DNA of 64,000 nucleotides, from NCBI GenBank assembly GCA_022791975.1, contig JAAWAC010000041.1:124001-188000 (forward strand), read 5' to 3'. The notes under the pieces are model-generated. The model saw only the letters and a program-made list of their open reading frames with translations. It had not been told where the DNA came from and did no database searches. The stretch is from Lachnospiraceae bacterium (lineage in GTDB: Bacteria > Bacillota > Clostridia > Lachnospirales > Lachnospiraceae). This document shows positions 2,000 through 22,344 of the stretch, piece by piece; position 1 is the first letter of the stretch, and the number at the start of each line of letters is the position of its first letter. A program made the translations under genes and the position numbers.

Positions 2000-4137
2000 C
2001 GCCATATCCCCCATACAATCCCCCCACAGAGAAGCAACAGTACAAGGGCCAACAAAATATAGACCTTTTGATTAAAATATGTGGTGACCTGGTATTCGTA
2101 TACGGCGAAGGCCAGGTCGCCATTTTTTTGCTCTTCCCCGGCAATGGTCAGGGTACCCTGGGGATACAGATCCTGATTGCCGGTATGGTAATACAAAAGC
2201 TGGAGGCTGTCCTCCCCGTGAATATAACCGGGCCATAGGGTGATGGTATAGGTGGTCTCCTCTTCTGGAACCACCAGGTCAAAGGAAAAGACATACCACT
2301 TATTTTTTTCCACCATGCCAGACAGGAAACGGTCGTTGTCGTAGACCAGATTACCTTTTTCGTCTGCAATAGACACACAGAAGGCAGATTGGTTGTATTC
2401 TCCCACGGGATTCAGGGCATGGATGGCCAGGCGGTTGAAGGGCTGATCCGTGACAAAGGTCTGGGTATAAACCTCCTCATATTCCTGAATATAGGTGCGG
2501 TCATTGTCATTATCCTGATACTGATGGACCCGGTACAGATTTTCCTCAATGGGAGTTTCCACCAGCTGCTTCTGTCCTAAAATGAGAAGGACCAGCAGAC
2601 AGGCCAGACCGGCACTTAAGGAAATGCGGCCAACAGCCAGGAAATTCCTGATTTCCAGAACCTTCCATATACAGAGAAGCTGGTCTGCCATTAAAACCAG
2701 GGTCAGGAAGAGAAAGCCAATGCTGTAGAGAGGATTGGTTTCCCAGATAAGGTGAAAAGCCATAGCGCCCAAAAGAGACAGCTGGAGAACAAAGGCTGGG
2801 GTTTGTTCCCTGAAACGGCGCCAGGAGAAAAGAATCAGCAGGGCACCAGCTCCCAGGACCAGCATTTGCAGAACCCGGAATACCTGGGCGTAAATGACCA
2901 GCAGGCCGTCCTTATTGCCCAGCAGGTACTCGTAGAGGCGTCCATACTGGCAGGCGCTATTTTCCGCCTCGTAGGTGTCGGTGCCGTCCACCCAGGTATT
3001 CAGAAGCTTGCGTCCCATAAGAGAAAGCATTCCCCCAGGCCCGGCTTCCTTGACCCGCTCCGTCAAAAGCTTGAGATCGGCGCTGACTTTTTCTTCTTTG
3101 GTAGGGAAGCTGTAGGTATACAGCTCGTCCGACTGATCGAAGGCACCGTCCCAACGCATACCCATCATAACCCAGTGGATTGCCGGGAACCCAGTGTTTT
3201 TGTAGTCAAACCTTACATAATGGTTCACCGCGGCGCTCCACAAGCCCAGGGTGAGGGCACAGGAAAGCATAAAAGCCGCCCCGTTGACCAGAAGGGGACG
3301 TAGAGCATGAGACCGGATCTGTTTTTGCAGGGAACAAAAAGCAGCAATGCCTATGGCAATCAGGGCGATCAGAGTGGTGGCCCGAAATTTATAGCCCATG
3401 AGAAGCAAAAAAACTAGAAGAAAAGTCCTGGCAGGCTGAAACCGGTCATTTTTTTGTCTCATTTGGAAAAACAAAAGGAGGGCCCCCATAAAAAAGGGCA
3501 TGGAAAGGGTAGAAGTATAGTAAAATCCTGCCCACACATAGGTGGCCGGGCATGCGGCGCAGAGCAACAGATAGAGAAGATTTGCGGAGGGCTCTTTTCG
3601 GATACAGGTGACAATCCCACTGCCTAGCAGCAAAGAGAGATCCAAAAGCCCTACGTTTAGCAGCTGAACAAACAGCATATAATGATCAGCAGGCAGCCCC
3701 AGAGAAGAGGCCAGGGAGAGAAGCTGGTATGTGAAGATAGTAATGGGGTAATTGTTGGTATAGCGAGCAAAATAGCCATTCTCATAGGTTGGAGATATGG
3801 TGTGGGTGGACAGCATCTCTACAGCCTGATCAAAGGTTTTCAGGGCATCGTAGCGAAGGATGGGCCTAAAATAGAGAAGGAAACCCAGTTGTCCGGCCAG
3901 AATCAGTCCTAGCATTCCCCATTTGGCTAATTTTTGTACAGGCTTTTGGCAGTGGTTCAGCCGCCTGTAAATCAGATAAAGTCCATAAAATAGAAACAAG
4001 ACACCGATCCCTATGAGAAGCAGCCTGATAGCTGGCATGTCGCCGGCCCTCAAAAAGGTACTGTCCCAGCGGACAAAGCCAAAAGCCGCAATATAGAAGG
4101 TAAACAGGGCGAGAAGAAAAAGGGTTAAGCTGTACAT
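1978..4137 (-). CDS. Large polytopic membrane protein, GT-C-like
   Basis: 719 aa, many TM segments followed by an extracellular beta-rich region; converges on the preceding gene with 22 bp overlap. Confidence 0.65.
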   Translation of the reverse strand: MYSLTLFLLALFTFYIAAFGFVRWDSTFLRAGDMPAIRLLLIGIGVLFLFYGLYLIYRRLNHCQKPVQKLAKWGMLGLILAGQLGFLLYFRPILRYDALKTFDQAVEMLSTHTISPTYENGYFARYTNNYPITIFTYQLLSLASSLGLPADHYMLFVQLLNVGLLDLSLLLGSGIVTCIRKEPSANLLYLLLCAACPATYVWAGFYYTSTLSMPFFMGALLLFFQMRQKNDRFQPARTFLLVFLLLMGYKFRATTLIALIAIGIAAFCSLQKQIRSHALRPLLVNGAAFMLSCALTLGLWSAAVNHYVRFDYKNTGFPAIHWVMMGMRWDGAFDQSDELYTYSFPTKEEKVSADLKLLTERVKEAGPGGMLSLMGRKLLNTWVDGTDTYEAENSACQYGRLYEYLLGNKDGLLVIYAQVFRVLQMLVLGAGALLILFSWRRFREQTPAFVLQLSLLGAMAFHLIWETNPLYSIGFLFLTLVLMADQLLCIWKVLEIRNFLAVGRISLSAGLACLLVLLILGQKQLVETPIEENLYRVHQYQDNDNDRTYIQEYEEVYTQTFVTDQPFNRLAIHALNPVGEYNQSAFCVSIADEKGNLVYDNDRFLSGMVEKNKWYVFSFDLVVPEEETTYTITLWPGYIHGEDSLQLLYYHTGNQDLYPQGTLTIAGEEQKNGDLAFAVYEYQVTTYFNQKVYILLALVLLLLCGGIVWGIWRYRPSTT

Positions 4138-4244
4138 AGATCCTCCTGTATGAAAAGCAAAAATTATTTTTGTTTTATTTTATCCCAATATAAAGAAAAA
4201 GGCAAAGGATAATGGTACAATTTTGCTGAAAGGAGGGGATTTTC

Positions 4245-4655
4245 ATGTCAAAATACTATATGGCAGAGAATCTAAGAAGATTAAGAACATTTTATGACTA
4301 TCGACAAAAAGAGGTAGCCGATCAACTGCACATTTCCCGTCAAGCTTATTCCAATTATGAGCGGGGAACCCGAATGCCGGATATGCGGATCGCTGTCCGG
4401 TTGGCAGAATTCTATCAAATAACTCTGGACTGTCTGGTTTTAGCCAAAGACCCGGTCAAAAGGCTAATGGATCAGACACGGAGAGAATATAAGGCACTGA
4501 CGCCGGTGGGCAGCCTGATTCCCATAAGCGGGCCTGAGACGAAAATGTTGCTGCGTTACAAGCGGCTTTCCCGGGAGGAGCAGGAGGGAGTACAGGAGTT
4601 TGTCAGATTCCGGGAGGAGCATCTTCGCAAAAAGAACCGAGAGCGGAGAAAATAG
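4245..4655 (+). CDS. XRE-family helix-turn-helix transcriptional regulator
   Basis: N-terminal 'LRRLRTFYDYRQKEVADQLHISRQAYSNYERGTRMPDMRIAVRLAEFY' is a canonical HTH_3; good RBS (aaaggagggg). Confidence 0.9.
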   Translation: MSKYYMAENLRRLRTFYDYRQKEVADQLHISRQAYSNYERGTRMPDMRIAVRLAEFYQITLDCLVLAKDPVKRLMDQTRREYKALTPVGSLIPISGPETKMLLRYKRLSREEQEGVQEFVRFREEHLRKKNRERRK

Positions 4656-4693
4656 GTGCAAAAAAGCCGGCTCATAGACGGCGGGACGAAGTA

Positions 4694-4736
4694 CAGGCCA
4701 AAGGACAGGAAGCTTTGGCCTGCATTCTCCTTCTTT
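4694..4736 (+). terminator. Intrinsic terminator after XRE gene
   Basis: Perfect 10-bp arms CAGGCCAAAG (4694-4703) / CTTTGGCCTG (4713-4722), followed by pyrimidine-rich CATTCTCCTTCTTTT. Confidence 0.7.
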
Positions 4737-4761
4737 TCCCACTTCTTTCTTGAAAAATTAT

Positions 4762-4790
4762 TTGCTATTCTGTCAAAAACAGTATATAAT
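4762..4790 (+). promoter_or_regulatory. Sigma-A-type promoter of the EPS operon with an internal dyad
   Basis: TTGCTA (4762-4767) - 17 nt - TATAAT (4785-4790); dyad CTGT-CAAAA-ACAG (4770-4782) between the boxes. Confidence 0.75.
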
Positions 4791-4827
4791 GTCACATGTA
4801 TATCTACGGCTTAAGAGGAATAAGAAA

Positions 4828-6696
4828 ATGAATCTGGAACATTTTGTGGAAAAGAACGCGCCCAAAAACAGGATTGCGCTTTTAGTGGTCATGGATATTA
4901 TCCTGATTACCTTATCCGGCTTTTTGGCTTTATATATTCGTTATGATTTTCGCTTCAGCAATATGGAAATGCAGTATGTTCACTATGAGCTGGAGCTACT
5001 GCCACTGAATCTTATTTTTACCCTAATGCTGTTTGTGATGTTTCGGCTGTACCGAAGTGTGTGGCGGTTTGCCAGCAGTACCGAGCTTTTGAATGTGATT
5101 GGGGCCTGTACGGCCAGCATTGCAGTACAGATTTTTTACATGTCTGTTCTCCGGCTGCGTATGCCCATAAGCTATTACCTGATGAAATATGTTTTGCTTA
5201 TTATAGAAATCGGTACCCTGCGGTTTACCTACCGTATTTTGCGGATGATGCAGGAGTGGCGGTTTCGGGAGCATAAGGATTTACGGAAGAGGACCATGGT
5301 GGTAGGCGGCGGCGAGGCGGGAGCCATGATTATCAAGGAGCTGCAAAACAGCCGTTATCTGGACCAGGATGTGTGCTGCGTGGTGGATGACAATGGAGCC
5401 AAGCAGGGGAAATATATCCGGGGCGTGAAAATCATGGGCGGGCGCAAGGATATTTGCCGGTTGGCCCATGAGCTGGAAATCAATGAGATTGTGGTGGCCA
5501 TGCCTTCTGCGCCTCAGCGGGAGATACGGGAGATACTAAATATTTGTAAGGAAACCAACTGTGAAATGAAAGTGTTGCCCGGCCTGTATCAGATGATCAA
5601 GGGTGAGGTTAGCATGTCTAAGCTTAGAAAGGTGGAGATCGAGGATCTTCTGGGTCGGGAACCTATTCGCATTCAGCTGGATCAGATTATGCAATATGTG
5701 TCTGGCAAGGTGGTGCTGGTCACTGGTGGTGGCGGATCCATTGGAAGCGAGCTCTGTCGGCAGATAGCAGCCCACAGTCCCAGACGCCTGATTATTGTGG
5801 ATATTTATGAGAATAATGCCTATGATATTCAGCAGGAATTGAAACACAGTTATCCGGGGTTAGATTTGGTGGTGCTTATCGCTTCTGTGCGGAATACCCA
5901 CCGCATAGAAAGCATTTTTCAAACCTACCAGCCGGAAATTGTCTATCACGCGGCAGCTCATAAACATGTGCCTCTGATGGAGGACAGCCCTAATGAGGCT
6001 ATCAAGAACAATGTATTTGGCACCTACAAGACGGCCAGAGCGGCGGATAAGTATGGGTGCAAGCGCTTTGTGTTGATTTCCACGGACAAGGCGGTAAATC
6101 CCACCAATATTATGGGAGCCTCCAAGCGAATCTGTGAGATGATTGTGCAGACTATGAATAACCGCTCAAAGACAGATTTTGTGGCGGTTCGCTTTGGAAA
6201 TGTGCTGGGAAGCAATGGCAGCGTGTTTCCCCTGTTTAAAAAGCAGATTGAGCAGGGCGGTCCTGTGACAGTGACCCACCCAGATATTATTCGGTATTTT
6301 ATGACTATTCCGGAGGCTGTGTCTTTGGTGCTCCAGGCGGGCGCCTTTGCTAGAGGCGGGGAAATTTTTGTGTTGGATATGGGGGAGCCAGTGCGGATTG
6401 TGGATCTGGCCAAAAACCTGATTCGCCTGTCAGGCTTTAAGCCCTATGAGGATATAGACATTCAGTTTACGGGATTGCGTCCCGGAGAAAAGCTATATGA
6501 GGAGCTTCTTATGAGTGAGGAGGGGCTCCAGGAGACGGAAAATAAGCTGATTCACATAGGGAAGCCCATTGAGATGAATGAGGAGCTCTTTTTGCGGCAG
6601 TTGGAGGAGCTAAAGCGGATTGCCAATGAGGATTCAGCCAATATCCGGCGGAAGGTGAAGGAGATTGTGCCCACCTACGTGATAAAGCAGGAGTAG
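4828..6696 (+). CDS. Nucleoside-diphosphate-sugar epimerase/dehydratase, CapD/EpsC-type membrane protein
   Basis: N-terminal TM segments, 'VVGGGEAGAMIIKEL' and 'VLVTGGGGSIGSELCRQI' Rossmann motifs. Start moved from 4750 to 4828 because the predicted promoter lies at 4762-4790. Confidence 0.9.
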   Translation: MNLEHFVEKNAPKNRIALLVVMDIILITLSGFLALYIRYDFRFSNMEMQYVHYELELLPLNLIFTLMLFVMFRLYRSVWRFASSTELLNVIGACTASIAVQIFYMSVLRLRMPISYYLMKYVLLIIEIGTLRFTYRILRMMQEWRFREHKDLRKRTMVVGGGEAGAMIIKELQNSRYLDQDVCCVVDDNGAKQGKYIRGVKIMGGRKDICRLAHELEINEIVVAMPSAPQREIREILNICKETNCEMKVLPGLYQMIKGEVSMSKLRKVEIEDLLGREPIRIQLDQIMQYVSGKVVLVTGGGGSIGSELCRQIAAHSPRRLIIVDIYENNAYDIQQELKHSYPGLDLVVLIASVRNTHRIESIFQTYQPEIVYHAAAHKHVPLMEDSPNEAIKNNVFGTYKTARAADKYGCKRFVLISTDKAVNPTNIMGASKRICEMIVQTMNNRSKTDFVAVRFGNVLGSNGSVFPLFKKQIEQGGPVTVTHPDIIRYFMTIPEAVSLVLQAGAFARGGEIFVLDMGEPVRIVDLAKNLIRLSGFKPYEDIDIQFTGLRPGEKLYEELLMSEEGLQETENKLIHIGKPIEMNEELFLRQLEELKRIANEDSANIRRKVKEIVPTYVIKQE

Positions 6697-6723
6697 GCAA
6701 GCAGAGCCGGGAGATGGTGATTG

Positions 6724-7233
6724 ATGTGGTATGTCATTCAGGTGCGAACTGGAACAGAGGAGAGCATCCAGATTCAGTGTGAAAAGAATATTTCCGGAAA
6801 GATTCTTAAGGAATGCTTTATTCCCCGCTATGAGGAGCAGCGGAAATATCTGGGGGAATGGCGTATTTGTCAGCGAACGTTGTTTCCAGGGTATCTGTTT
6901 TTGGTGTCGGAGCACTTGGACGAGCTATATCAGAGCCTAAAGCATGTGATTGGCTTGACCAAGCTTTTGGGCACTGGCCGGGAGATTATTCCCCTTTCCC
7001 AGGATGAAATACAGTTCCTTTTGCGTTTTGGAGGGGAGGAACAGCTGGTAAAGCTTTCCCAGGGCATCATTGAGCAATCCCGGGTTCGGGTTCTCCTTGG
7101 CCCTCTTCAGGGAATGGAGGGGTATATCCGGAGGATTGACCGCCACAAGCGGAAGGCTTATCTGGAAATTCCCATGTTTGGAAGGATTTTGAATGCTCAG
7201 GTTGGGCTGGAGATAATGGAGAAATGTGAGTAG
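6724..7233 (+). CDS. loaP: NusG-family transcription antiterminator, LoaP type
   Basis: 'MWYVIQVRTGTEESI...LFPGYLFLVSE...VIGLTKLLGTG...GPLQGMEGYIRRIDRHKRKAYLEI' matches the NGN + KOW layout of clostridial LoaP; located in the EPS operon. Confidence 0.85.
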   Translation: MWYVIQVRTGTEESIQIQCEKNISGKILKECFIPRYEEQRKYLGEWRICQRTLFPGYLFLVSEHLDELYQSLKHVIGLTKLLGTGREIIPLSQDEIQFLLRFGGEEQLVKLSQGIIEQSRVRVLLGPLQGMEGYIRRIDRHKRKAYLEIPMFGRILNAQVGLEIMEKCE

Positions 7234-7253
7234 GGAAAGGAGAAAGGTTTTAC

Positions 7254-8771
7254 ATGAACGAAGGCCAGAATGCATACGAGAAGGAGATCAATTTAAAGGA
7301 GCTTTTGTTTTACTGCCTGAAAAAGTGGCGCACTATTTTGGCAGCCATGGTTGTTCTGGCTGTGTTAGCTGGGGTGTATAAATATATATCCACAGGTAAG
7401 AGCAATCAGGCAAAGTTGGAAAGACAGGCAGAGGAAGAAAAGGATGGGAAAGAGAAGGTGGAGGATATTCTGGATGAGTCCCAGGATGTCATCAATGAAT
7501 TGAAGGCAGAGCATTACCGGCTGGTGATTGCTCAGTCCGAGGAGGCCCTTGAGAGACAGAAGGATTATCTGGACAACTCTGCAATCATGAAGCTTGATGG
7601 AAATCACTTGCAGACAGGCACTCTGATCTTTTGCATGGATTTTCGGGAGGGAGACAGCGACGCTTTGGATGCTCTGGTGGCAGCCTACCAGGCCTATGTA
7701 ACCGATGGCCGTCTGGCTGGGGAGCTTGAGAAGGCCGGAGAAGGCATTTCCACTGCGGAGCTACAGAAGCTTATTCTCTTTTCCGATGATAAATCCACTG
7801 TACGGCTCCAAAACAGTGGTACCAATGCTGTTGGGAAGAGCATGGGGGAGCTTCAGCTAAAATTGGCCGGACAGCATGTGTTCCAGCTTCGCATATTTGC
7901 ACCAGATGAAAAGCTGTGCAGGAAGTATTTGGAGACAGCAGAGCGTGTTATTTTGGCATATGGGGAGGAGCTACGCCAGGAGGTGGCGGAGCATGGCATT
8001 AAGGTATTATCCTCCACCCAGTCGGAGCAGATGAGCACGTGGATTTCTGATTACCAGAGCCAGCTTTTGGCAGAGTACAGAAGCGCCGTAGATAATCTAA
8101 ATGTTTTACAGACCACCTTAAAGCAGATGGAGGAGCCGGAGGAGCTGTTGGAGGAAGAGGAAGCGCCAGAAGATGAGGACGCAACTCTGGTTCTGGAAAG
8201 TCCTGGAAGATCTGGAATAAAGTTTGCAGTGGTGGGTCTGGTGTTAGGAGCTTTTCTGGGAGCCTTTGTGTGGATGCTGGTGTATATTATGAGCAGCCGG
8301 CTCCAGAGCGTGGATTCCTTTGAGGAAGAGTTTGGCATGAAGCTGGTGGCCAGGATAAGCGGCCAGACCCAGGAGGGAAAGTGGTTCGGTTTTCTGGATC
8401 GATGGATTCAACGAATGGAGGAGGGCGCTTTTGGGAATATTCCCTTTGAGGAGCAGATGAAAATTGCCTCCGCCAATGTAAAAGCCGCTTTAGCCAAAAA
8501 TGAGGACTTGAAAAAAGTTATGCTTGCTGGTACAATAGCGGGGAAAGATGCAGAGGCTATGTGTGCGCAGTTGACGGCAGATGTGGAAGGGGTTGCCTTC
8601 TCCGACTACAAGCAGGTGGTGTTCTGTGCAGCTGATCTGGAGGAGCTTGCCCAATATGATGGGGTGCTGTTCCTGGAGAAAAAAGGCGTATCTGTGTCTG
8701 AGCTTATCCGCCAGGAGCGGGAGCTGGCCAAGTGTCGGAATGTAACGGTGCTAGGAACAGTAGTGGTGTAG
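7254..8771 (+). CDS. Wzz-like chain-length determinant protein with a degenerate CpsD-like C-terminal region
   Basis: N-terminal 'EKEINLKELLFYCLKKWRTILAAMVVLAVLAG', coiled-coil middle, second TM ~8220-8310, cytoplasmic tail '...DLKKVMLAGTIAGKDAE...DGVLFLEKKGVSVSELIRQERELAKCRNVTVLGTVVV'. Confidence 0.8.
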   Translation: MNEGQNAYEKEINLKELLFYCLKKWRTILAAMVVLAVLAGVYKYISTGKSNQAKLERQAEEEKDGKEKVEDILDESQDVINELKAEHYRLVIAQSEEALERQKDYLDNSAIMKLDGNHLQTGTLIFCMDFREGDSDALDALVAAYQAYVTDGRLAGELEKAGEGISTAELQKLILFSDDKSTVRLQNSGTNAVGKSMGELQLKLAGQHVFQLRIFAPDEKLCRKYLETAERVILAYGEELRQEVAEHGIKVLSSTQSEQMSTWISDYQSQLLAEYRSAVDNLNVLQTTLKQMEEPEELLEEEEAPEDEDATLVLESPGRSGIKFAVVGLVLGAFLGAFVWMLVYIMSSRLQSVDSFEEEFGMKLVARISGQTQEGKWFGFLDRWIQRMEEGAFGNIPFEEQMKIASANVKAALAKNEDLKKVMLAGTIAGKDAEAMCAQLTADVEGVAFSDYKQVVFCAADLEELAQYDGVLFLEKKGVSVSELIRQERELAKCRNVTVLGTVVV

Positions 8772-8836
8772 TTCGCAGTAAGTATGGCTGCGGCGCAATG
8801 TTCGTATGATAGAAATATAAATTAGGTAAAATCCAG

Positions 8837-8874
8837 GTTCTCTCAAATCGTCGCCTTGTCGCGTTTGGGAGAAC
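8837..8874 (+). promoter_or_regulatory. Leader RNA hairpin, candidate LoaP recognition element
   Basis: GTTCTCTCAAA (8837-8847) pairs with TTTGGGAGAAC (8864-8874), 11 bp with one G-U; no T-tract after it, so not a terminator. Confidence 0.55.
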
Positions 8875-8997
8875 GGGATGTTATATTGGTATGGGGAAAA
8901 TCTGGCTATGTGAAGGCGGAGTGGCGAAGCACGGCTATTTTTCGGAAGAAGTTTGGCAGGTTTATGGAAAAAAATAGGATGTGAAAGAGTTTTAGGC

Positions 8998-9038
8998 AGC
9001 TTGTGGGAAAATGGATTCTCACAGGCTGATTGTTTTTT
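8998..9038 (+). terminator. Intrinsic terminator/attenuator upstream of the glycosyl operon
   Basis: AGCTTGTGGGA (8998-9008) pairs with TCTCACAGGCT (9017-9027), 11 bp with two G-U, 8-nt loop, followed by GATTGTTTTTT. Confidence 0.75.
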
Positions 9039-9075
9039 GGAGAAGTTTTCAAACACAGTTTCATGGAGATACAGA

Positions 9076-10866
9076 ATGGCTAAGAAAATAAATAAAAAGA
9101 AGATAGTAGGAACGATTGCGCTTTTTGCGGGCATGTTTGCTATTATGACAGTCATTGCAAAGAAAAGGGTGGAGAAGGAGCAGATCAATAAGGAAAATCC
9201 TTACATAGGGAAGGATGGGGAGAAAGAAGAACCAACGGCCTATGAGAGAGTGGGGAAGCCGATCATAGACAGAGGACTATCCTTTGTTGGATTGCTGGTA
9301 TTGTCGCCGTTGTTTGCCGTTATTTCTATTGCCATTTTTCTGGATGATCCGGGAACAGTATTTTTTACACAAAAACGAGTGGGTAAAGATGCAAGATTTT
9401 TCTGCCTGCATAAGTTTCGAAGTATGAAAATGTCTACCCCTCATGATGTTCCCACGCATCAGCTAGATGATCCAGAGCAATATATTACAAGAGTGGGAAG
9501 GTTTTTAAGAAAGACAAGCTTAGATGAGCTTCCACAGATTTGGGATATATTCAGAGGAAAGATGAGTGTCATTGGTCCCAGACCTGCATTGTGGAATCAG
9601 GCGGATTTGGTAGCTGAACGGGATAAATATGGAGCAAACAAGGTGCTGCCAGGCTTGACTGGATGGGCCCAAATCAATGGAAGAGATGAACTGGAGATAT
9701 GTGAAAAAGCGAAATTAGACGGGGAATATGTGAAGCATTTAAGACAGGGCGGTTTTGACGCTCTGTTTTTTGATTTGAAATGTTTTTTTGGAACTATCAA
9801 GGCAGTGGCGAGCAGTGATGGGGTGGTAGAAGGTGGAACAGGAGAAATGCACAAAAATTGTGAGATACCCACAGATTCTGTTGATGCCGAGATTGAAAAT
9901 TATGGTTACAAAAAAAGCTTTCATATTAACAAGGAAGGCTTCAAACATGTCTTAATTACAGGTGCAAACAGCTATATTGGGGAAGCCTTTGAGGCCTATG
10001 CAAAGAGATGCTATCATAAAAATTTTGTTATTGATACCGTGGATATGATAGATGGAACATGGAGGGAAAGGGATTTTTCCGCTTATGATGCAGTGTTCCA
10101 TGTGGCTGGTCTGGCCCATGCGGATGTTGGAAATGTCGATGAGGAGACAAAGAAAAAATATTATGAAGTGAATACGAATCTGGCTATAGAAACAGCTAAG
10201 ATGGCTAAGGAATCTAAAGTCAAACAGTTTGTGTTTATGAGCTCTATGATTATTTATGGGGAATCTGCACCCTATGGGAAGAAGAAAATCATTGATGAAC
10301 ATACAGTTCCTGCCCCTGCAAATTTTTATGGGGACAGTAAGTGGCAGGCGGATAAGGGTGTGAGACAACTGGAGACAGAAGCGTTTCATGTGGCTGTGCT
10401 GCGGCCGCCGATGATTTATGGACGAGGGAGTAAGGGGAATTATCCGGTATTGGCCAAGCTGGCCAAAAAACTGCCCGTATTTCCTGCTGTGGAAAATCAG
10501 CGTTCCATGCTTTTTATTGATAATTTGTGTGAGTTTTTATGTCTGTTAATATTGAGCGGAGAAGGCGGCGTTTATTTTCCTCAGAATGCGGAGTATACCA
10601 GCACAACAGCATTGGTTGAAAGAATTGCGGACACCACATGGCATCCTATGAAGTTTACAAGATTATTGAATCCGGCTGTGGCTGCTGCGGCACATATTCC
10701 GGGAAAGACAGGAGACTTGACAAATAAAGCCTTTGGAAACAGTATTTATGCCCAGCGATTATCTCGTTATGACGGTTTACATTATCATGTTGTTGACCTG
10801 GGGGATTCCATAGAGTTAACGGAGGCAGATACGTTCAGTGAGACAGAACTGGAAGAAGGAGCGTAA
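9076..10866 (+). CDS. Fusion: monotopic phosphoglycosyl transferase (bacterial sugar transferase) + NAD-dependent epimerase/dehydratase
   Basis: 'DRGLSFVGLLVLSPLFAVISIAIFLDDPGTVFFTQKRVGKD...KFRSMK...RKTSLDELPQIWDIFRGKMSVIGPRPAL' then 'HVLITGANSYIGEAFEAY...YGDSKWQADK'. Start at 9076 (MAKKINKKK) rather than 8953, since the latter would run through the terminator. Confidence 0.85.
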   Translation: MAKKINKKKIVGTIALFAGMFAIMTVIAKKRVEKEQINKENPYIGKDGEKEEPTAYERVGKPIIDRGLSFVGLLVLSPLFAVISIAIFLDDPGTVFFTQKRVGKDARFFCLHKFRSMKMSTPHDVPTHQLDDPEQYITRVGRFLRKTSLDELPQIWDIFRGKMSVIGPRPALWNQADLVAERDKYGANKVLPGLTGWAQINGRDELEICEKAKLDGEYVKHLRQGGFDALFFDLKCFFGTIKAVASSDGVVEGGTGEMHKNCEIPTDSVDAEIENYGYKKSFHINKEGFKHVLITGANSYIGEAFEAYAKRCYHKNFVIDTVDMIDGTWRERDFSAYDAVFHVAGLAHADVGNVDEETKKKYYEVNTNLAIETAKMAKESKVKQFVFMSSMIIYGESAPYGKKKIIDEHTVPAPANFYGDSKWQADKGVRQLETEAFHVAVLRPPMIYGRGSKGNYPVLAKLAKKLPVFPAVENQRSMLFIDNLCEFLCLLILSGEGGVYFPQNAEYTSTTALVERIADTTWHPMKFTRLLNPAVAAAAHIPGKTGDLTNKAFGNSIYAQRLSRYDGLHYHVVDLGDSIELTEADTFSETELEEGA

Positions 10867-10871
10867 CACGA

Positions 10872-12122
10872 TTGCAGACAATTTGGATTATTGATCATTA
10901 TTCGTCAGAACCGAAATATGGGGGGATATCTCGTCAATTTGACTTTGCCAGGGAGCTGGGAAGGCGGGGATATCATGTGGTGATTATTGCATCTGGCTTT
11001 TGTCACTTTACTCATACCTATATAGCAGACAAGCCAGTAAAGGTTAGTACATTGGATGAAAATGTTCACTATATTTATATAAAGACCAGCAGCTACCAGG
11101 AAAATGGCGGTCTTGGGCGCGGGAAAAATATGCTTGATTTTATGAGAAAGGTTATCAAGTATGAGGACATTATTGCCAGACGCTATGGAAAACCAGATGC
11201 TGTAACTGGCTGTTCTGTTCATCCTTTGGCCTGGGTAGCGGCTTACAAAGCTTCCAAGAGATTTCAGGCACGCTTTGTGGCAGAGGTGAGAGATTTCTGG
11301 CCCAGAATCTGGGTGGTTAGTGGAGACAAGAAAAAGACCGATCCCATGGTATTGTTTTTTGATACTATCCAGCGGTGGGCTTTTCGACGTGCTGACCGTA
11401 TTATTTACTCCATGTATCACGGAGATAAATATCTTTGCGGAGAGTTAGGCGTGCCAAAAAGTAAGGCATACTTAATTGGACAACCCATGGATTGTGAAAG
11501 ATTTGACGAAAATTGCAAAAGGCCGGATTTGCTTCCAGATGAAATACGCCAGTTCATAAAGGATTCCTTTGTTTGTTCCTTTGCAGGCTATTATATGGCG
11601 TATGAGGGCGTTTATGTTATGCTGGAGGCGCTTAAGATATTAGAGGCCAAAGGATTGCCTGTGAAAATGGTATTTGTAGGTTCTGGACAGGAGAAGGAAG
11701 GGATGGAGCGATATATCAAAGATCATCATCTTCACCATGCACTTGTTTGGGACAGAATTCCTAAGGAGGCGGTACCAGCACTTATTTCACGGTCTGATAT
11801 CTGTATGGCCCATTTAGAGGTTGAGGGACACAAGGAAGTATATAAATATGGCGTATCAAAAAACAAGGTAAACGAATATTTGTATTCAGGAGCATGCACC
11901 CTGTATGGATTTCTGTATAGAGATGATGAGGTGGCTGCAAGCGGCGGCGGCCTGATGTTTGAGCCTTATCATGCAGCGGATTTGGCGGAGAAGATTGAGA
12001 TGGTATATCACATGCCGGAATCCCAGCGAAAACAGTATGGCATAAGGGGACGGGAGTATATTAGAGCCAATCACAGTGTGGAGGTATTGACAGACCGGAT
12101 GACAGAGGTGCTTTTCGGATGA
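10872..12122 (+). CDS. Glycosyltransferase family 4 (WbuB-like)
   Basis: 'YGGISRQFDFARELGRRGYHVVIIASG' and C-terminal GT4 'KYGVSKNKVNEYLYSGACTLYG'; TTG start. Confidence 0.75.
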   Translation: MQTIWIIDHYSSEPKYGGISRQFDFARELGRRGYHVVIIASGFCHFTHTYIADKPVKVSTLDENVHYIYIKTSSYQENGGLGRGKNMLDFMRKVIKYEDIIARRYGKPDAVTGCSVHPLAWVAAYKASKRFQARFVAEVRDFWPRIWVVSGDKKKTDPMVLFFDTIQRWAFRRADRIIYSMYHGDKYLCGELGVPKSKAYLIGQPMDCERFDENCKRPDLLPDEIRQFIKDSFVCSFAGYYMAYEGVYVMLEALKILEAKGLPVKMVFVGSGQEKEGMERYIKDHHLHHALVWDRIPKEAVPALISRSDICMAHLEVEGHKEVYKYGVSKNKVNEYLYSGACTLYGFLYRDDEVAASGGGLMFEPYHAADLAEKIEMVYHMPESQRKQYGIRGREYIRANHSVEVLTDRMTEVLFG

Positions 12123-13819
12123 GTAAAATGGATAAGGCGTGGCTTTACTGGAATACAATTCGAAGCCTCAGGCCAGTACAGATCAGGTATCAGATAAAGA
12201 ACCGGATATTGAAAAACCAGAAAAAGAAATTAGCAGGCCGGATAGAAAAGCTGAGGGCGCCGGAAATTTTGGAGACTCCCCATATTTTAATACCGGAGCT
12301 GGACTGTGAAAAAGAATATTTACGGCGATTTCGTGTAGAGGAACTGCTGGAGAACCAAATAGACCTTCTCCATGAAATGCATGTTATAGAAAAAAACTGG
12401 AAGGTATCGTCGGCTTCTCACTTGTGGAACTATAATCTTCACTATTTAGAATTCCTGATTCCATTAGCAGCAAAATATAAAATCACAAAGGATGAGAGAT
12501 ATTTTCTTAAGTGGAAGGAACTACTGGAGTCCTGGATGGAACAAGCCACTGGTGACAGTCTGGAGCCATATACCATATCCATGCGGATTCCCAATCTGTT
12601 GATTTGTAGGGAGCTGCTGTCAGAAAAAATCAAAAATACACAATTAGAACAAGCCCTAATCACATCTATTTATCAGCAGTATCGATATTTACTATATGCG
12701 CAGGAGAAGGCGCTTCTTGCGAATCACTATTTTGAAAATTTGAAAACTCTGGTAATCTCCAGTCTGTTCTTTCATGAGCTGGAAACATACCATAAATATT
12801 TTGATCTGTTTTTAAAGGAGATAGAAGAACAAATCCTTTCTGACGGGCTTCATTTTGAAAGAAGCCTTATGTACCACAAGATTATTTTGGAAGATATTTT
12901 ACGGGTTTATGTGGTGCTGAAAAGCTCAAATCACCTGTGTGATGGGGAAAAGCTAGTTCCCACAATAAAAATTATGACAGCAGCTATGGTGAATTTGGAG
13001 GAGGGGTTCCCTAGAACGCCTCTTTTTAATGATTCCGGAAATAATGTGAGTAAAAAAAAGGATTCCCTACTTAGGGCAGCACAAAAAATTTGCGGGTACG
13101 AAAAAACAGCGATTAGAAGCTTTGAAGCATCAGGATACTATAAGCTTCATCAAGGAGAGACGACAATTCTTTTTGACTGTGGGGATATCGGGCCCTCCTA
13201 TATGGGGGGACATGCCCACTGTGATTGCCTCAGTTTTGAATTATGCGTCCAAGGAAAGGCCCTGTTTGTGAACTCTGGTACTGGCCAGTATCAGGGAGAG
13301 CTTCGGCCTTTTTTTCGCAGTACGGCGGCACACAACACGATTATGATAGATGATAGGGAGCAATCGGAGCTGTGGGGGGAGCACAGAGCAGCCCGACGGA
13401 TAAGAACAGCGAAAGGAGAGCTGAAAGCCAAGACACTGGTTGGAAGCTTTCAAAGCTACCAGGGCGATCTTTTTCGAAGAAGCTTTACATGGAAAAATGA
13501 GAGAACCTTGGTTATAAGGGATGAATGGAGGGCTTACCACACGGGAAGGCATATGGCAAGACAATTTCTGCATCTTGGGCCAGATTTCTGTTACAGACGA
13601 AATGGAAGCCAGATCGAGGTTTGGGAGGGAAAGAGACAATGGGCAGTTATTTGGCTTCCAGCTAAGAGCGATTATCTCATTCATACAGAGGGACAGCTGA
13701 CTAACTATGCGGAAAATTTTGGGGAATATGGGAAAAAACAGGTTTTGGAAATCCGCACACCCTTTCAGGATAAAGCCTGGTCACAGATTGAAATTGAAAT
13801 AAGAACAGGAGAACAATAG
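12119..13819 (+). CDS. Heparinase II/III family protein (no recognisable signal peptide)
   Basis: 'NYNLHYLEFL', 'NHYFENLKTLVISSLFF', 'GGHAHCDCLSFELCVQGKALFVNSGTGQYQ...RSTAAHNTIMIDDREQSE' are heparinase II/III motifs; ATGA overlap with upstream gene. Confidence 0.85.
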   Translation: MSKMDKAWLYWNTIRSLRPVQIRYQIKNRILKNQKKKLAGRIEKLRAPEILETPHILIPELDCEKEYLRRFRVEELLENQIDLLHEMHVIEKNWKVSSASHLWNYNLHYLEFLIPLAAKYKITKDERYFLKWKELLESWMEQATGDSLEPYTISMRIPNLLICRELLSEKIKNTQLEQALITSIYQQYRYLLYAQEKALLANHYFENLKTLVISSLFFHELETYHKYFDLFLKEIEEQILSDGLHFERSLMYHKIILEDILRVYVVLKSSNHLCDGEKLVPTIKIMTAAMVNLEEGFPRTPLFNDSGNNVSKKKDSLLRAAQKICGYEKTAIRSFEASGYYKLHQGETTILFDCGDIGPSYMGGHAHCDCLSFELCVQGKALFVNSGTGQYQGELRPFFRSTAAHNTIMIDDREQSELWGEHRAARRIRTAKGELKAKTLVGSFQSYQGDLFRRSFTWKNERTLVIRDEWRAYHTGRHMARQFLHLGPDFCYRRNGSQIEVWEGKRQWAVIWLPAKSDYLIHTEGQLTNYAENFGEYGKKQVLEIRTPFQDKAWSQIEIEIRTGEQ

Positions 13820-13822
13820 AAA

Positions 13823-15043
13823 ATGGTTAATGTTATAGGTTTGGGATATATCGGGCTTCCTACCGCCCTGATGTTGGCATCTCACGGAGTTGAGGTTATT
13901 GGAACAGATTACAATGAGAAGCTGGTAGAGACTTTGAAGGCAGGGAGGACCACCTTTAAAGAGGAGGGGCTGGAGGAATTATTTAAAAGCGCAGTGGATG
14001 CGGGAATTCAATTTACCACCAAATACCAGGAGACAGATACGTATATTGTTTCTGTTCCCACACCCTATGATAAGTTTTCCAAAAAGGTAGATGCCTGTTA
14101 TGTAGTGTCTGCGGTTCAGGATGTATTAAAGGTGGCTCCAAGAGGAGCAGTTATTATCATTGAATCCACAGTTTCTCCAGGTACTCTTGATAAATTCATA
14201 AGGCCAGCTATTGAAGAGACTGGACGCAGAATCGGTACAGATGTATCTCTTGTTCACGCTCCAGAGCGGATTATACCGGGAAATATGGTTTATGAGCTGC
14301 TTCACAACAATCGGACCATTGGAGCCGATGACAGAGCCATCGGAGAGAAGGTGAAGACTCTCTATGCTTCCTTCTGTCAGGGAGAGATTGTGGTGACAGA
14401 TATCCGCACTGCAGAGATGACGAAGGTGGTGGAGAATACTTACCGTGCAGTTAATATCGCATTTGCCAATGAGCTGGCGAAAATATGCCGGCATGACAAT
14501 ATGGATGTGTATGAGATTATCCGCATCTGCAATATGCACCCAAGAGTAAATATCTTGCAACCAGGGCCTGGAGTAGGAGGGCATTGCATTTCAGTAGATC
14601 CCTGGTTTTTGGTTGGAGATTATCCAAGTTTGGCAAAGGTGATCGATGAATCCATGAAAACCAACGATGGAATGCCGGATTTTGTGCTGAATCGTATCTA
14701 TGAGATTATGAAGGAAGAAGGGCTTACAGATATCACCAGGGTGGGGCTGTATGGGTTGACTTACAAGGAGGATGTGGATGATATGCGTGAGAGCCCTACG
14801 CTTCAGCTTTTAGAATCTCAGGAGCGCCATTTGGCTTCTGGATTAAAGGTTTATGATCCGCTTATTACAGAAAATGCAGTTCCCAATCAATTTCATAGCT
14901 TGGAAGAGTTTTTGAATGCGGTGGATATGGTTGTGGTTATGGTGGGGCATGAAGAGATTAAAAACAATATGGAGAAGCTGAAGGGGAAGGTTGTATTGGA
15001 TACGCGGCATATCTGTGGGTTTGACAAGGTTTACAAAATATAA
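13823..15043 (+). CDS. Nucleotide-sugar dehydrogenase, WecC-like (UDP-ManNAc dehydrogenase)
   Basis: 'VIGLGYIGLPTALMLASHGVEVIGTD', 'ESTVSPGTLDKFI', 'PGPGVGGHCISVDPWFL' active-site Cys block. Confidence 0.85.
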   Translation: MVNVIGLGYIGLPTALMLASHGVEVIGTDYNEKLVETLKAGRTTFKEEGLEELFKSAVDAGIQFTTKYQETDTYIVSVPTPYDKFSKKVDACYVVSAVQDVLKVAPRGAVIIIESTVSPGTLDKFIRPAIEETGRRIGTDVSLVHAPERIIPGNMVYELLHNNRTIGADDRAIGEKVKTLYASFCQGEIVVTDIRTAEMTKVVENTYRAVNIAFANELAKICRHDNMDVYEIIRICNMHPRVNILQPGPGVGGHCISVDPWFLVGDYPSLAKVIDESMKTNDGMPDFVLNRIYEIMKEEGLTDITRVGLYGLTYKEDVDDMRESPTLQLLESQERHLASGLKVYDPLITENAVPNQFHSLEEFLNAVDMVVVMVGHEEIKNNMEKLKGKVVLDTRHICGFDKVYKI

Positions 15044-15186
15044 ACTGATGAAAGTGAAATTTTGTATATGGAACAAGATTTGCTTTTAAAGGATTTATGA
15101 TACCTTTATTTGCGCTATATATTGAGACAAGTAATTAGATTGGTAGTTTATTTCGTGGATACGTTTTACTGAGAGGAGTTAAAAAT

Positions 15187-17307
15187 TTGAAGCAGCTATT
15201 TTTATCAGTCAGTGACGGCTCTGTAAGTATGGTGGAGACGCCGGCTCCTACTGTTAAAGAAAATACCGTTATTATTGAGACATTGTATTCCGTAGTCAGT
15301 GCAGGAACGGAGCGATCGCTCACATCTTTTGGCGGAAAGAATCTAATACAGAAAGCCATGGAACGGCCAGACCAGGTGAAAAAGGTTACGGAAAAGATGT
15401 CTACAGACGGCATTCTTACAACGGTGGAGGCAGCCTTTGGAAGGTTAAAAGATCCGATGCCTATGGGATATACAGCAGTGGGCAGAGTGGTGGAAACTGG
15501 AAGAGGTGTGACAGAGGTTGCCGCAGGGGATATAGTTGCGGCCGTAGGACAGGCTTATCACAGTGAGGTAAATCGGGTTGGCAAAAATTTGGTGGTCAAG
15601 GTTCCAGATGAGGTGGAGGATCTGAGACAGGCAGCCTTTTCTGCATTGGGCGGGATTGCCTTAGAGGGTATCCACCAAGCGGAGATTATTCCGGGTGAGA
15701 CGATAGCAATAGTGGGACTGGGACTCCTTGGACACATCACAGCGCGGATCTTGGATGCCTATGGGTGTGATGTAATTGGGTTTGACGTGGCAGATAAGAC
15801 GTTGCCAGATACCCGACTAAAGGCTTTTATCAATTCCACGGATGATCATGCGGCGGAGCTGGCACGCTCTTTGACACACGGCAGAGGTGTGGATAAGGTG
15901 ATTATCACAGCGGCAACGGATTCCAATGCTCCTATTGATTTGGCGGAGGAGATTACCAGGGATCGGGGAATCATCTGTATGATTGGTGTGACCCGGATGG
16001 AGCTTGACCGCAGACCATTCTATCAGAAAGAGCTCAGCTTTAAGATAGCCCGGTCCTATGGCCCCGGAAGGTATGACAGCAGCTATGAGGAGGCGGGAAC
16101 GGATTATCCCATTGGATATGTAAGGTTTACAGAGGGGCGGAATGTGGAGGAGTTTTTGCGACTTCTTGCTACAAAGCGCTTAAGGATTGGTGATTTGATT
16201 ACCCACACACTTTCATTTTCGGATGCCACAGTAGCTTATGAGATGATTACGAAAAATCCGAGGCATGAGAAGTATATTGGTGTAGTTTTAAAATATGAGG
16301 AAAATCAGGCAAAATGGGATAGTGTGGTAATGAATGTTGCCGCTGCTTCCATTGGCAAAAAGGTTGTAAATAAACACCAGATTAATCTTGGTTTGATAGG
16401 CGCGGGATTGTTTGCTCGGACTACAATGCTTCCAGTGATGCAGGCCAGCGGCCTGTACCATTTTAAAGGGCTGGCAACTACGGGAGGAATTGCGTCAGCC
16501 CAGGCAAATGAGGTATTTCCTTTTGATTATACCACCAGCGATTATCGGAAGCTTTTGGAGGATGCAGACATTGATCTAATAGCCATCTCCACACAACACA
16601 ACAGTCATGGGAAGTTTATTGTGGAGGCTTTGGGAGCTGGGAAGAATGTCTATGTGGAGAAGCCACTGTGTTTGACTTTGGAAGAATTGTGTCGGATTGA
16701 GGAGGCTTATAAGAATAGTACAGGAGAGTTGTTTTGTGGATTGAACCGAAGACATGCTCCTCTGATAAAAGAAATCAAGAGGGAATTGCAGACAGATAAA
16801 ATCCCAGCCATATATGACTATATTGCCAATGCCGGATATATTCCGCCAGAACACTGGACCCAGGACGAAACCAAAGGCGGTGGCCGGATTATCGGGGAGG
16901 CAGTGCATTTTATTGATACCATTCAAAGCTTAGATGGAAGTGAGCTGGTGGAGCTGAACCTGTCTTTTGCGGCAAATCCCGCTTACCCGAAGAGGGATAA
17001 TGCGGTGATTAGTCTTCGTTTTGCTTCCGGAGCTGTGGGGACAGTTGTTTATACTTCTATGGGGAGTAAGAAGTATCCTAAGGAGCAGTTGAGAGTGTTC
17101 AGTAATGGATCGGTGTATGTGATGGATAATTATGTGGGGCTTTCAAAGTATGGGAGCAGTAAGAAGAAGGAGACGAAGCTTAAGCAGGATAAGGGGATTG
17201 GGGATGAGTATCGGTATATTTTTGATGTGGTGAGTGGGAAGAGGGGGAATGGGGTTATTCGAGATGCTTTTGTGGGGCATAGATTGTTGTTTGAGGCGAT
17301 GAGATAA
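15187..17307 (+). CDS. Bi-domain oxidoreductase: MDR alcohol-dehydrogenase-like domain + Gfo/Idh/MocA domain
   Basis: N-terminal 'MGYTAVGRVVETGRGV...IAIVGLGLLGHITARIL'; C-terminal 'INLGLIGAGLFARTTMLPVM...GKNVYVEKPLCLT'. Confidence 0.85.
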   Translation: MKQLFLSVSDGSVSMVETPAPTVKENTVIIETLYSVVSAGTERSLTSFGGKNLIQKAMERPDQVKKVTEKMSTDGILTTVEAAFGRLKDPMPMGYTAVGRVVETGRGVTEVAAGDIVAAVGQAYHSEVNRVGKNLVVKVPDEVEDLRQAAFSALGGIALEGIHQAEIIPGETIAIVGLGLLGHITARILDAYGCDVIGFDVADKTLPDTRLKAFINSTDDHAAELARSLTHGRGVDKVIITAATDSNAPIDLAEEITRDRGIICMIGVTRMELDRRPFYQKELSFKIARSYGPGRYDSSYEEAGTDYPIGYVRFTEGRNVEEFLRLLATKRLRIGDLITHTLSFSDATVAYEMITKNPRHEKYIGVVLKYEENQAKWDSVVMNVAAASIGKKVVNKHQINLGLIGAGLFARTTMLPVMQASGLYHFKGLATTGGIASAQANEVFPFDYTTSDYRKLLEDADIDLIAISTQHNSHGKFIVEALGAGKNVYVEKPLCLTLEELCRIEEAYKNSTGELFCGLNRRHAPLIKEIKRELQTDKIPAIYDYIANAGYIPPEHWTQDETKGGGRIIGEAVHFIDTIQSLDGSELVELNLSFAANPAYPKRDNAVISLRFASGAVGTVVYTSMGSKKYPKEQLRVFSNGSVYVMDNYVGLSKYGSSKKKETKLKQDKGIGDEYRYIFDVVSGKRGNGVIRDAFVGHRLLFEAMR

Positions 17308-18425
17308 TGGGAATTGTAACTGGTTTGAGGAAAGTGGTTCGTTATAATAGCTTGTATGGCTTCAGGAGAACAGTTATCAAGGTAGCAGGGAGAACAAGGA
17401 ATCACAAATTAAAAATCTTTTTTCCAGTAAAACAACGGGAGAAGGATATATCCTTGATAGGATGCGGACAATTTGGTTTTTCTACCATATCATACTTTCT
17501 TTATAAAAAAGTGGGAAGCCAATTTTTAGAATGTTACGATATTAATAAAGAAAAAAGCCTTTCAACTGCAAGGTTTTGGGGGTATAAGATCTGCAAGAGT
17601 GCCCAGGAATTAATTTCTAACCATAAGTGCAAGTATGTGTATATTGCTTCAGATCATTATACTCACAGCAGGTATGCAATAGAAGCTATAAAAGCAGGCA
17701 AAATCGTTTATTGTGAGAAGCCAATTTCTGTCACCAGAGATCAGTTGTTGGAGCTTGTAAACGCAATAAAGCAATATCATGCAGAGATTTATTTTGGATA
17801 TAACAGACCTTTTTCAAAAGCTGTAGATGACTTAATACCTTATATTAAAAATTGTAAAGCACCAATGACTTTAACCTGTTTTATTTCAGGCCATAAGCTG
17901 TCTGCGGACCATTGGTATAACGATCCAAAAGAAGGAACCCGGATATGTGGAAATCTTGGTCACTGGATCGATCTATCCATGTATTTATTTGAGCAAAGAG
18001 GGGTAGAGCCGGAAATATATGATATTAACATTACTTATTCTAGTAAGGATGAGTTGGATGATAATATTGCAGTTTCCTATAGAACAGAACATGGAGATTT
18101 GGTTACACTGGTTCTAACCTCGCGTACAGAGCCCTTTGAAGGAATTAATGAGACCATTAATCTGCAATGTGGGAATGTGATTTCAAAAATAGATGATTTT
18201 CAAAGGCAAACCTTATGGATTGGAGAGAAAAGGCAGTTACTAAAATACAATCCTAAAGATGTTGGGCATTTAAGGGCCATTAATCAGCCATTTATTGATA
18301 AGAAGCGAAGAGTGAATACTGTCATAAAGTCAACACTTTTGATGTTAGAGATTAAAGATATGGTGATGAACGTGGAAGAAAGCAGGCGATATGATTTGAA
18401 GGAAGATAATAAATTTTTGTTTTAA
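17307..18425 (+). CDS. Gfo/Idh/MocA family oxidoreductase
   Basis: 'SLIGCGQFGFSTISYFL...AIKAGKIVYCEKPISVT...GNLGHWIDLSMYLF'; TAATG junction with preceding gene. Confidence 0.8.
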   Translation: MGIVTGLRKVVRYNSLYGFRRTVIKVAGRTRNHKLKIFFPVKQREKDISLIGCGQFGFSTISYFLYKKVGSQFLECYDINKEKSLSTARFWGYKICKSAQELISNHKCKYVYIASDHYTHSRYAIEAIKAGKIVYCEKPISVTRDQLLELVNAIKQYHAEIYFGYNRPFSKAVDDLIPYIKNCKAPMTLTCFISGHKLSADHWYNDPKEGTRICGNLGHWIDLSMYLFEQRGVEPEIYDINITYSSKDELDDNIAVSYRTEHGDLVTLVLTSRTEPFEGINETINLQCGNVISKIDDFQRQTLWIGEKRQLLKYNPKDVGHLRAINQPFIDKKRRVNTVIKSTLLMLEIKDMVMNVEESRRYDLKEDNKFLF

Positions 18426-18458
18426 TATAAAGTAGTTGAAAAGAGAGGGGCAGTATAA

Positions 18459-19325
18459 ATGGACAAGGAAAGAAAAGCTTCTGTGTCAGTAATCATCCCG
18501 TTCTATTCACATGCAGATTGGCTGGAAGAGGCGCTGGACAGTGTTTTATTACAGACATTACCAGCATATGAAATTATAGTTATTAATGATGGTTCAAAAG
18601 AAGATTTATCAAAGCTTATAGAAAAGTATAAGGATTCGGTGACATTTCTTCAACAAAGAAATCAAGGGGCGGCGGCAGCCAGAAATCTTGGAATTGAAAA
18701 TGCAAGTGGTGATATTGTGGCTTTTTTAGATTCTGATGATCTGTGGGAGCCTACTAAATTGGAAATACAAGTTGGTGAAATGGAAAAGAATAAGTATATA
18801 TGGAGTGCCAGTGCGTATAAGACATTTGGATGGGGCAAAAGTGAATATATCAGGCCTTATTGTTCAAAGAATCTATGCTGGGAGCATTTATACAATACAG
18901 CAAGAATAGCTACACCTGCTGTTGCTGTATATCGAAGTGCTCTTGAAAAAAACAGATTTGCAGTTGATATGAAAAATGGACAAGACACATTTCTTTGGTT
19001 TAAATTGGCGAATTTATATAGATTAGGCGTAATAGGCGAGCCACTTGTTCGAGTACGGAAAAGAGAAAACAGCACTTATAGGAATACGAATTTATGGATA
19101 AAGACTAGAGCAATTTTGTGGGAAAAGATGAGTGTAACCTGTGAACTTATACTCCCCAGAAGATTTTTAACAAAGACAGCTTACCGCATTGTTTCGTTTG
19201 TTTATAAAAGAATGCTATGTTCTAAATGCAATTTTATCGATAAGTTGTTATTTATAGTATCCTGGGGATTGTTTAAAATAGATGAGTTTTTCTTAAGGAT
19301 AAAAGAACCTAATATTATTGGATAA
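18459..19325 (+). CDS. Glycosyltransferase family 2
   Basis: 'VSVIIPFYSHADWLEEALDSVLLQTLPAYEIIVINDGS...FLDSDDLWEPTKLE'. Confidence 0.9.
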   Translation: MDKERKASVSVIIPFYSHADWLEEALDSVLLQTLPAYEIIVINDGSKEDLSKLIEKYKDSVTFLQQRNQGAAAARNLGIENASGDIVAFLDSDDLWEPTKLEIQVGEMEKNKYIWSASAYKTFGWGKSEYIRPYCSKNLCWEHLYNTARIATPAVAVYRSALEKNRFAVDMKNGQDTFLWFKLANLYRLGVIGEPLVRVRKRENSTYRNTNLWIKTRAILWEKMSVTCELILPRRFLTKTAYRIVSFVYKRMLCSKCNFIDKLLFIVSWGLFKIDEFFLRIKEPNIIG

Positions 19326-19357
19326 AGAGAGTTGACTTTGACAAGAGATATGAAATA

Positions 19358-20452
19358 ATGAAGAAAAGAATTGTTTTTATAATTAGAGATTTAAATCATG
19401 GTGGAGCGGCAAAAATGTTGTCATATGTTGCAAATGTAGCTGCTGAAATATCAGATGATATATTTATACTTGTAATTAATGATGTTTCGAATTATAGTCT
19501 TGGAATCAAAAAAAATATTACAATAAAGATAATTGAAAAAACTGGAAAGCCATTAAATAAAATAAGTCGTGTTATTAATACAATAGGAAAAATTAAAAAA
19601 GAAATAAAAGAACTAAATCCGGATATACTGATTCCATTTGTTAGTGGTAATGTAATATATACTTATTTAGCTGTAAGAAATAAATATTATATTATAGGGG
19701 CAGAGAGGGGAAACCCCGAAGCCCTTCCGTTTAGGTTAAAAATATTGTGTAAATATATATATCCAAAATGTAATTATATGCTGTTTCAATCAAAAGGAGC
19801 AGCAGATTTTTATTTTAAGGGAAAAAAGGGAAAATACGAGATTATTCCAAATCCCTGTATTCTTCTATTGAATCAAAATAAAACCAAAAACAAGGGTCAT
19901 AAGATAAAAATTGTGTCGTCTTCTAGGCTTGCTAGAGAAAAGAATTTGGATATATTACTTAGGGCATTTCAAAAATGTAGAGCAAGGGATAGAGCAGAAT
20001 TGTTTCTATATGGAGAAGGAAGAGAGGAACAATTCTTAAAACAACAGACACATGCCTTGAGGTTAGATGACAAAGTATTATTTTGCGGAAAAGTAGACAA
20101 TGTGTCAGAGCAAATTTGTGATGCTGATATTTTTGTACTTGTATCCAGTGGTGAAGGAATGCCAAATGGATTGATAGAAGCAATGGCATTGGGAATTCCA
20201 TGCATTACAACTAATTGTATGACAAATAACACAAATTCTTTAGTAGTTGATGAAGTCAATGGTTTAATTGTAGAAAAGAGGAATGTAGATGAATTGGCTT
20301 TTGCATTGGATAGACTTGTGTATGAAACAGGACTGGCAGAACGATTATCCCAAAATGCCATAAAAATAAGAGAAGATTTATCAGAACAAAAGATACATAA
20401 GAGGATAACTGAGTTTTTAAATAAAATATTGGTTGATGTGGAGGGCGCTTAA
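19358..20452 (+). CDS. Glycosyltransferase family 4
   Basis: 'IIRDLNHGGAAKMLSYV', 'SSRLAREKNLDILLRAF', 'DIFVLVSSGEGMPNGLIEAMALGIPCITT'. Confidence 0.9.
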   Translation: MKKRIVFIIRDLNHGGAAKMLSYVANVAAEISDDIFILVINDVSNYSLGIKKNITIKIIEKTGKPLNKISRVINTIGKIKKEIKELNPDILIPFVSGNVIYTYLAVRNKYYIIGAERGNPEALPFRLKILCKYIYPKCNYMLFQSKGAADFYFKGKKGKYEIIPNPCILLLNQNKTKNKGHKIKIVSSSRLAREKNLDILLRAFQKCRARDRAELFLYGEGREEQFLKQQTHALRLDDKVLFCGKVDNVSEQICDADIFVLVSSGEGMPNGLIEAMALGIPCITTNCMTNNTNSLVVDEVNGLIVEKRNVDELAFALDRLVYETGLAERLSQNAIKIREDLSEQKIHKRITEFLNKILVDVEGA

Positions 20453-20456
20453 TTTC

Positions 20457-22343: not shown

Positions 22344-22344
22344 G

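Follow-up and report, generated by a model that had tools for sequence, protein, structure and literature searches.

A two-hairpin leader element beside loaP genes and its proposed role in a Lachnospiraceae glycan locus

How does a LoaP protein, an antiterminator paralogous to NusG, reach the polymerase that is to transcribe its target operon? The question is raised by a Lachnospiraceae locus in which loaP is followed by an untranslated leader, a predicted intrinsic terminator and a cluster of glycan genes. The stretch analysed, here called the window, is 64,000 nucleotides long and covers positions 124001-188000 of its contig (JAAWAC010000041.1) in a 66-contig draft genome that is 87% complete. 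A sequence-only reading had pointed to a hairpin in this leader as the target through which LoaP lets polymerase pass the terminator. That hairpin is, as judged from alignments, one half of a conserved two-hairpin element beside loaP in many gut bacteria and some phages; the other half, hairpin 2 and the motif UGGCGAAGC, had been overlooked. The element and the terminator after it comprise the following features.

8828-8944, + strand: whole LoaP leader element (covariance model R1, 97.2 bits; syntenic copies in two congeners)
8831-8879, + strand: hairpin 1 (fold, alignment and covariation)
8878-8885, + strand: AUGUUAUA box (alignment; consensus G-A/U-CAUA, CAUA being found also in the RNA family RAGATH-28)
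8901-8920, + strand: hairpin 2 (UCUG-G-CU / AG-G-CGGA; internal mismatch common in other members)
8922-8930, + strand: fixed motif UGGCGAAGC, one nucleotide after hairpin 2, of the form GC-GNA-GC; proposed pause or non-template DNA signal
8931-8942, + strand: tail ACGGCUAUUUUU (column counts; consensus A-Y-R-C-C-Y-U5)
8997-9038, + strand: intrinsic terminator, a 13-pair stem (8997-9028) followed by ATTGTTTTTT

Hairpin 1 and its linkage to loaP

The hairpin first read at 8837-8874 proved exact in its stem (8837-8847/8864-8874), which continues outward beyond those limits (8831-8834/8876-8879), and when 8830-8880 was folded the energy was -22.3 kcal/mol (z -3.8), a value that none of 200 dinucleotide shuffles reached. 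The core of hairpin 1 at 8848-8863 (UCGUCGCCUUGUCGCG) is closed by AAA/UUU plus a covarying outer stem, and the consensus core, AAAUCGUCGC-NUN-GYCGCGUUU, is set in a variable stem with strong covariation. Aligning the leaders of related loaP genes had been proposed as the check on this stem, and the outcome was clear. When 22 first hairpins were aligned without gaps, their 19-pair stem had 84% standard pairs and 93 double-change cells compared to 33.5 in shuffled alignments (0/500 as high) and at most 40 when the pairing was slid. In 49 elements outside model building both hairpins covary: double-change cells number 283, whereas shuffling gave 96 and sliding no more than 77, in an alignment that was fitted to the structure and hence leans towards it. 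Pairs of the core, too, change in concert, from C-G to U-A.

The conserved leader hairpin is linked to loaP. Model R1 was built from 18 elements, that of the window among them, so that its 97.2 bits there are not independent. Of 80 loaP loci gathered by protein similarity, 71 had not been used for the model, and 56 of these have a sense-strand element no more than about 1 kb from loaP, with one off-target match; a loaP match on a Bacillus thuringiensis plasmid was set aside. Loci with the element extend to other orders (Erysipelotrichales), Ruminococcaceae are also represented, and one Actinomycetota loaP locus has the motif alone. In a separate class-wide sample drawn around an Erysipelotrichales genome the element was present at 6 of 8 loaP loci (E<=3e-5). 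A search of 397 genomes of the family gave 28 with a match at E<=1e-4, and 24 of these carry a LoaP above the cut-off, whereas LoaP carriers overall number 46 of 397 (Fisher p 7e-22). Among the 250 genomes of the phylum of the window, matches at E<=1e-4 were confined to two LoaP carriers, and the element was not found at core nusG loci.

Of the strong matches away from loaP, some are at the end of a contig and others precede genes for an aminotransferase, a sugar transferase, a sugar dehydrogenase or other glycan functions. At L194, L196, L199 and L203 the element has no loaP nearby and stands ahead of a DegT aminotransferase or other glycan genes; L197 and L200, also distant from loaP, are without clear context. 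Such elements before glycan genes suggest, by their position, LoaP regulons acting in trans, and LoaP targets, even those far from loaP, thereby become searchable in gut bacteria whose surface glycans shape their interaction with the host. The hairpin 1 core of the window occurs only once in the genome and therefore its LoaP probably acts only at this locus, although additional targets may be missing because the draft is incomplete.

The second module and the RAGATH-28 relatives

The second hairpin begins about 20 nt past hairpin 1, and many of its copies, that of the window included, have four pairs, one mismatch and then more pairs. In nearly all loaP loci examined in the genus, tandem loaP pairs included, UGGCGNAGC is followed by AUACCYUUUU or a close variant; only G001:C61 (L045) departs from this, its sole copy of the motif being located in an unrelated stretch. 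Across 60 loaP loci of the family, UGGCG(A/G/T)AGC has 44 occurrences on the sense strand and a single one on the opposite strand. When the 34 nt upstream of the motif were folded, a hairpin ended at the motif-adjacent base or one nucleotide before it in 45 of 53 modules, while 14.8 were expected from shuffles. A conserved Y-R step lies 2 nt past the motif, and its Y is 12 nt downstream of hairpin 2. In hairpin-stabilised (class I) pauses the RNA hairpin is 11-12 nt before the RNA 3' end, and the spacing of hairpin 2 fits this geometry if the stop falls at that Y-R step. It is known that d(GCGAAGC) hairpins are highly stable; DNA folding of the short motif gave no stable structure under the parameters used, except for the T variant.

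Two variations of this module were also seen. In L270 and L273 (Clostridiales VE202-01 and Thomasclavelia) the motif is UGGUAAAGU, in which both GC pairs of GC-GNA-GC are jointly swapped for G-U type pairs. The same genome as that of the window has four more loci (contigs C8, C32, C66 and C35; L038-L041) with two loaP-like genes in tandem, where the 3' module lies between both genes and the first hairpin differs, being of the ACAGU...GACUGCGA type in three.

At Rfam gathering thresholds nothing was found in the window, five loci with good model matches had no Rfam match to the element, and families besides RAGATH-28 (RF03052) gave no match of interest. RAGATH-28 itself matched the window over its full length with 21.9 bits, which is below its gathering score of 45.3. 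It has a hairpin, a CAUA box, a second hairpin and then AUGGCGAAGC, and this order is present in the window, where the parts are spelled UUAUA and GUGGCGAAGC; its hairpin 1 core, GGUUGAUUCGUCC, is unlike that of the window. The RAGATH-28 copies at or above threshold (54.4, 64.7, 46.9, 52.4 and 49 bits) likewise adjoin a LoaP-type gene, all five lying directly after one in phages, and three of the five were located without reference to LoaP. The next gene was a terminase in all three copies checked by family search, and two more phage LoaP loci had weaker RAGATH-28 matches. The phage loci with a LoaP-type gene and RAGATH-28 are L049/L290, L293, L294, L295, L297, L299 and L300, and three of the phage loci have twister-P1 ribozyme matches a few kb upstream.

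From this arrangement, a phage LoaP-type gene followed by RAGATH-28 is likely an antitermination switch. The literature searched assigns no function to RAGATH-28; it is a related element, likely with LoaP recruitment as its job, which would give this orphan RNA family a role and extend LoaP to phage gene control. In a wider reading, to which we give tentative credence, phages would use this same signal to turn on late genes via their own LoaP.

Gene order, proposed mechanism and alternatives

The genes around the element in the window are as follows.

4245-4655, + strand: RstR-like helix-turn-helix regulator, first gene ahead of the cluster (Pfam HTH_3)
4750-6696, + strand: PglF-like nucleotide-sugar dehydratase (Pfam Polysacc_synt_2, E 2.7e-123)
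6724-7233, + strand: loaP, NusG-paralog antiterminator (NCBIfam NF033641 antiterm_LoaP, 172.5 bits, curated cut-off 125)
7254-8771, + strand: Wzz-like chain-length protein (assigned by an N-terminal membrane segment and position only)
9076-10866, + strand: first assembly gene, a sugar-1-phosphate transferase fused to an NAD epimerase domain (Pfam Bac_transf, Epimerase)
10872-38142, + strand: downstream glycan genes (family searches)

The product of 6724-7233, which had been read as a LoaP-type NusG paralog, is placed in that family by its score, and its closest solved structure is 8f5g (E 6.5e-21). The label wzz for 7254-8771 stands only in part: the N-terminal membrane segment and the place of the gene are Wzz-like, but no match in the family searches with this open reading frame reached a curated cut-off. 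The terminator had been located at 8998-9038 and is present there, between the leader hairpin and the first assembly gene; it ranks first among the terminator-like sites of each of the two scans that include it (3800-9300 and 8700-28600) and folds better than 200/200 dinucleotide shuffles of its own sequence. The next gene does start at 9076, with an ATG there and GGAG upstream. The glycan cluster after the terminator spans about 29 kb, and 10872-38142 encodes glycosyltransferases, UDP-sugar dehydrogenases, a flippase, an aminotransferase, an acyl- and a formyltransferase and a UDP-GlcNAc 2-epimerase. A heparinase II/III-like lyase gene (12119-13819) sits within the assembly cluster, and the two domains that are fused in 9076-10866 are apparently separate neighbouring genes in the two congeners.

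These two same-genus genomes hold an orthologous locus, with LoaP identities of 73% and 59%. Both of their leaders have the core AAAUCGUCGC-M-UUG-Y-CGCGUUU in a stem that is otherwise different, followed about 55 nt on by UGGCG(A/G)AGC. In the 73% relative the element follows the PglF-like gene and precedes loaP, in the 59% relative it follows wzz and precedes loaP, and in the window it comes after both loaP and wzz. It is upstream of loaP in 70 of 87 other loci, so that LoaP there would control its own operon and its production would be self-reinforcing. With loaP upstream of the element, as in the window, LoaP and the Wzz-like protein could be produced without read-through and only the assembly genes would be gated. 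The earlier proposal of a LoaP leader switch gains support from covariation and from the linkage to loaP, while the element turns out to be bipartite and its place after loaP and wzz unusual.

As we read these sequences, the LoaP encoded 1.6 kb upstream very probably loads at 8828-8944, is handed over to polymerase there and allows the terminator to be read through. Transcription from before loaP would yield LoaP and the Wzz-like protein and then reach the leader, where hairpin 1, once emerged, would be bound by LoaP. Polymerase would slow at the second module, with hairpin 2 at the RNA exit, some 12 nt from the RNA 3' end, and LoaP would be passed to polymerase while UGGCGAAGC is inside the bubble. 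The polymerase so modified would pass 8997-9038 and transcribe the assembly genes, and when LoaP is absent most transcripts would end there. Hairpin 1 would name the LoaP, and the second module would time and position its transfer, a role proposed because hairpin 2 would have class I pause spacing and GC-GNA-GC would lie in the bubble. We hypothesise, by analogy, that the second module is a pause and DNA signal like ops, the signal of RfaH. The model predicts loss of function on changing the core of hairpin 1 and on changing GGCGAAGC to GGCTTTGC, no harm on swapping the outer stem for that of a relative, and loss on opening hairpin 2 with rescue on re-closing it.

In favour of this model, the class of hairpin 1 tracks the LoaP tree (6 changes compared to 29.8 shuffled), although this may just be inheritance of neighbouring DNA. 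Two observations weigh against the model. Terminator-like sites past the element elsewhere number 37 in 98 against 12 in shuffles, but 28 on the opposite strand, and as this excess is hardly above the opposite strand a terminator after the element is not shown to be general. The dfn hairpin, the known target of a Bacillus LoaP, is of the UNCG tetraloop type, and no such tetraloop is present in the core UCGUCGCCUUGUCGCG, for which the 22-sequence alignment was examined; the two were compared by description, and hairpin 1 may be a variant that the authors of the dfn hairpin have already recognised.

It is also conceivable, although we would not count on it, that the 3' module works as RNA only, UGGCGAAGC and hairpin 2 being a second protein site (for NusA, NusB/S10 or the LoaP C-terminal domain) with no special pause or DNA signal. 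The motif is indeed transcribed, keeps a constant spacing to an RNA hairpin in which an internal mismatch recurs and precedes a stretch rich in C and U, its module resembles ops in letters only within chance, and RNA binding by LoaP is already known (PMC12691694). However, the motif is about nine bases long, its GC-GNA-GC is self-complementary and would be placed at the bubble if hairpin 2 is a pause hairpin, and a pause signal fits equally. An improbable alternative is that 8997-9038 merely ends the loaP-wzz transcript, that the downstream genes have their own promoter and that the element is a relic of the ancestral order. Since the element precedes loaP in most relatives the placement in the window would be a rearrangement, and there is a weak promoter-like site, TTGGCA-16-TAGGAT, at 8953-8980. 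This site, however, is upstream of the terminator, the scans list none from the terminator to 9076, and the element in the window is intact, with element and terminator arranged as a switch requires. We regard it as very improbable that the element is near loaP by chance and works as a self-cleaving ribozyme or a ligand riboswitch. Twister matches close to some phage copies, the family name and the origin of RAGATH-28 in a screen of the surroundings of ribozyme-associated genes would fit this reading. Conservation, however, falls on a short hairpin and a 9-nt motif, joined by a linker whose length varies, there is no multi-helix core, and the steady partner in chromosomes and phages alike is the LoaP gene.

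Comparison with known systems

In the Bacillus eps operon, which serves exopolysaccharide synthesis, the EAR is a leader RNA that acts in processive antitermination, and it is another RNA than the element described here. RfaH of Enterobacteria, like LoaP, is a specialised NusG paralog for long operons, glycan operons among them; it is recruited at ops, where it reads a small non-template DNA hairpin while polymerase pauses at C9 and U11 (PMC5995543). The likeness of ops to the second module lies in a short signal with GGCG and AGC before a T-rich stretch and in a self-complementary GC...GC loop. However, ops (GGCGGTAGCGTG) is a class II pause that involves no RNA hairpin, and RfaH reads DNA and counters Rho rather than intrinsic termination. 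When the motif of the window was tried as an ops site (GGCGGTAGCGT), UGGCGAAGC was one base short and the similarity score was matched by 13-24% of shuffles, and therefore ops serves as an analogy only.

The dfn and mln systems share with the window a LoaP-family protein, a leader RNA hairpin, an intrinsic terminator and a long biosynthetic operon. The targets of window-type elements differ in being glycan operons and phage genes, and our genome scan returned no Bacillus dfn locus. In the 2025 biochemical study of Bacillus velezensis LoaP the leader hairpin was required and bound, NusA-dependent intrinsic termination was relieved, a pause between hairpin and terminator was helpful in vivo, and a search upstream of the dfn hairpin for a non-template recruitment sequence found none (PMC12691694); its main text describes no conserved second hairpin with UGGCGAAGC. 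The element described here marks the probable site at which LoaP is loaded onto RNA polymerase, and because a fixed signal recurs at a fixed place in more than 80 loci, the recruitment of LoaP to polymerase becomes testable by point changes.

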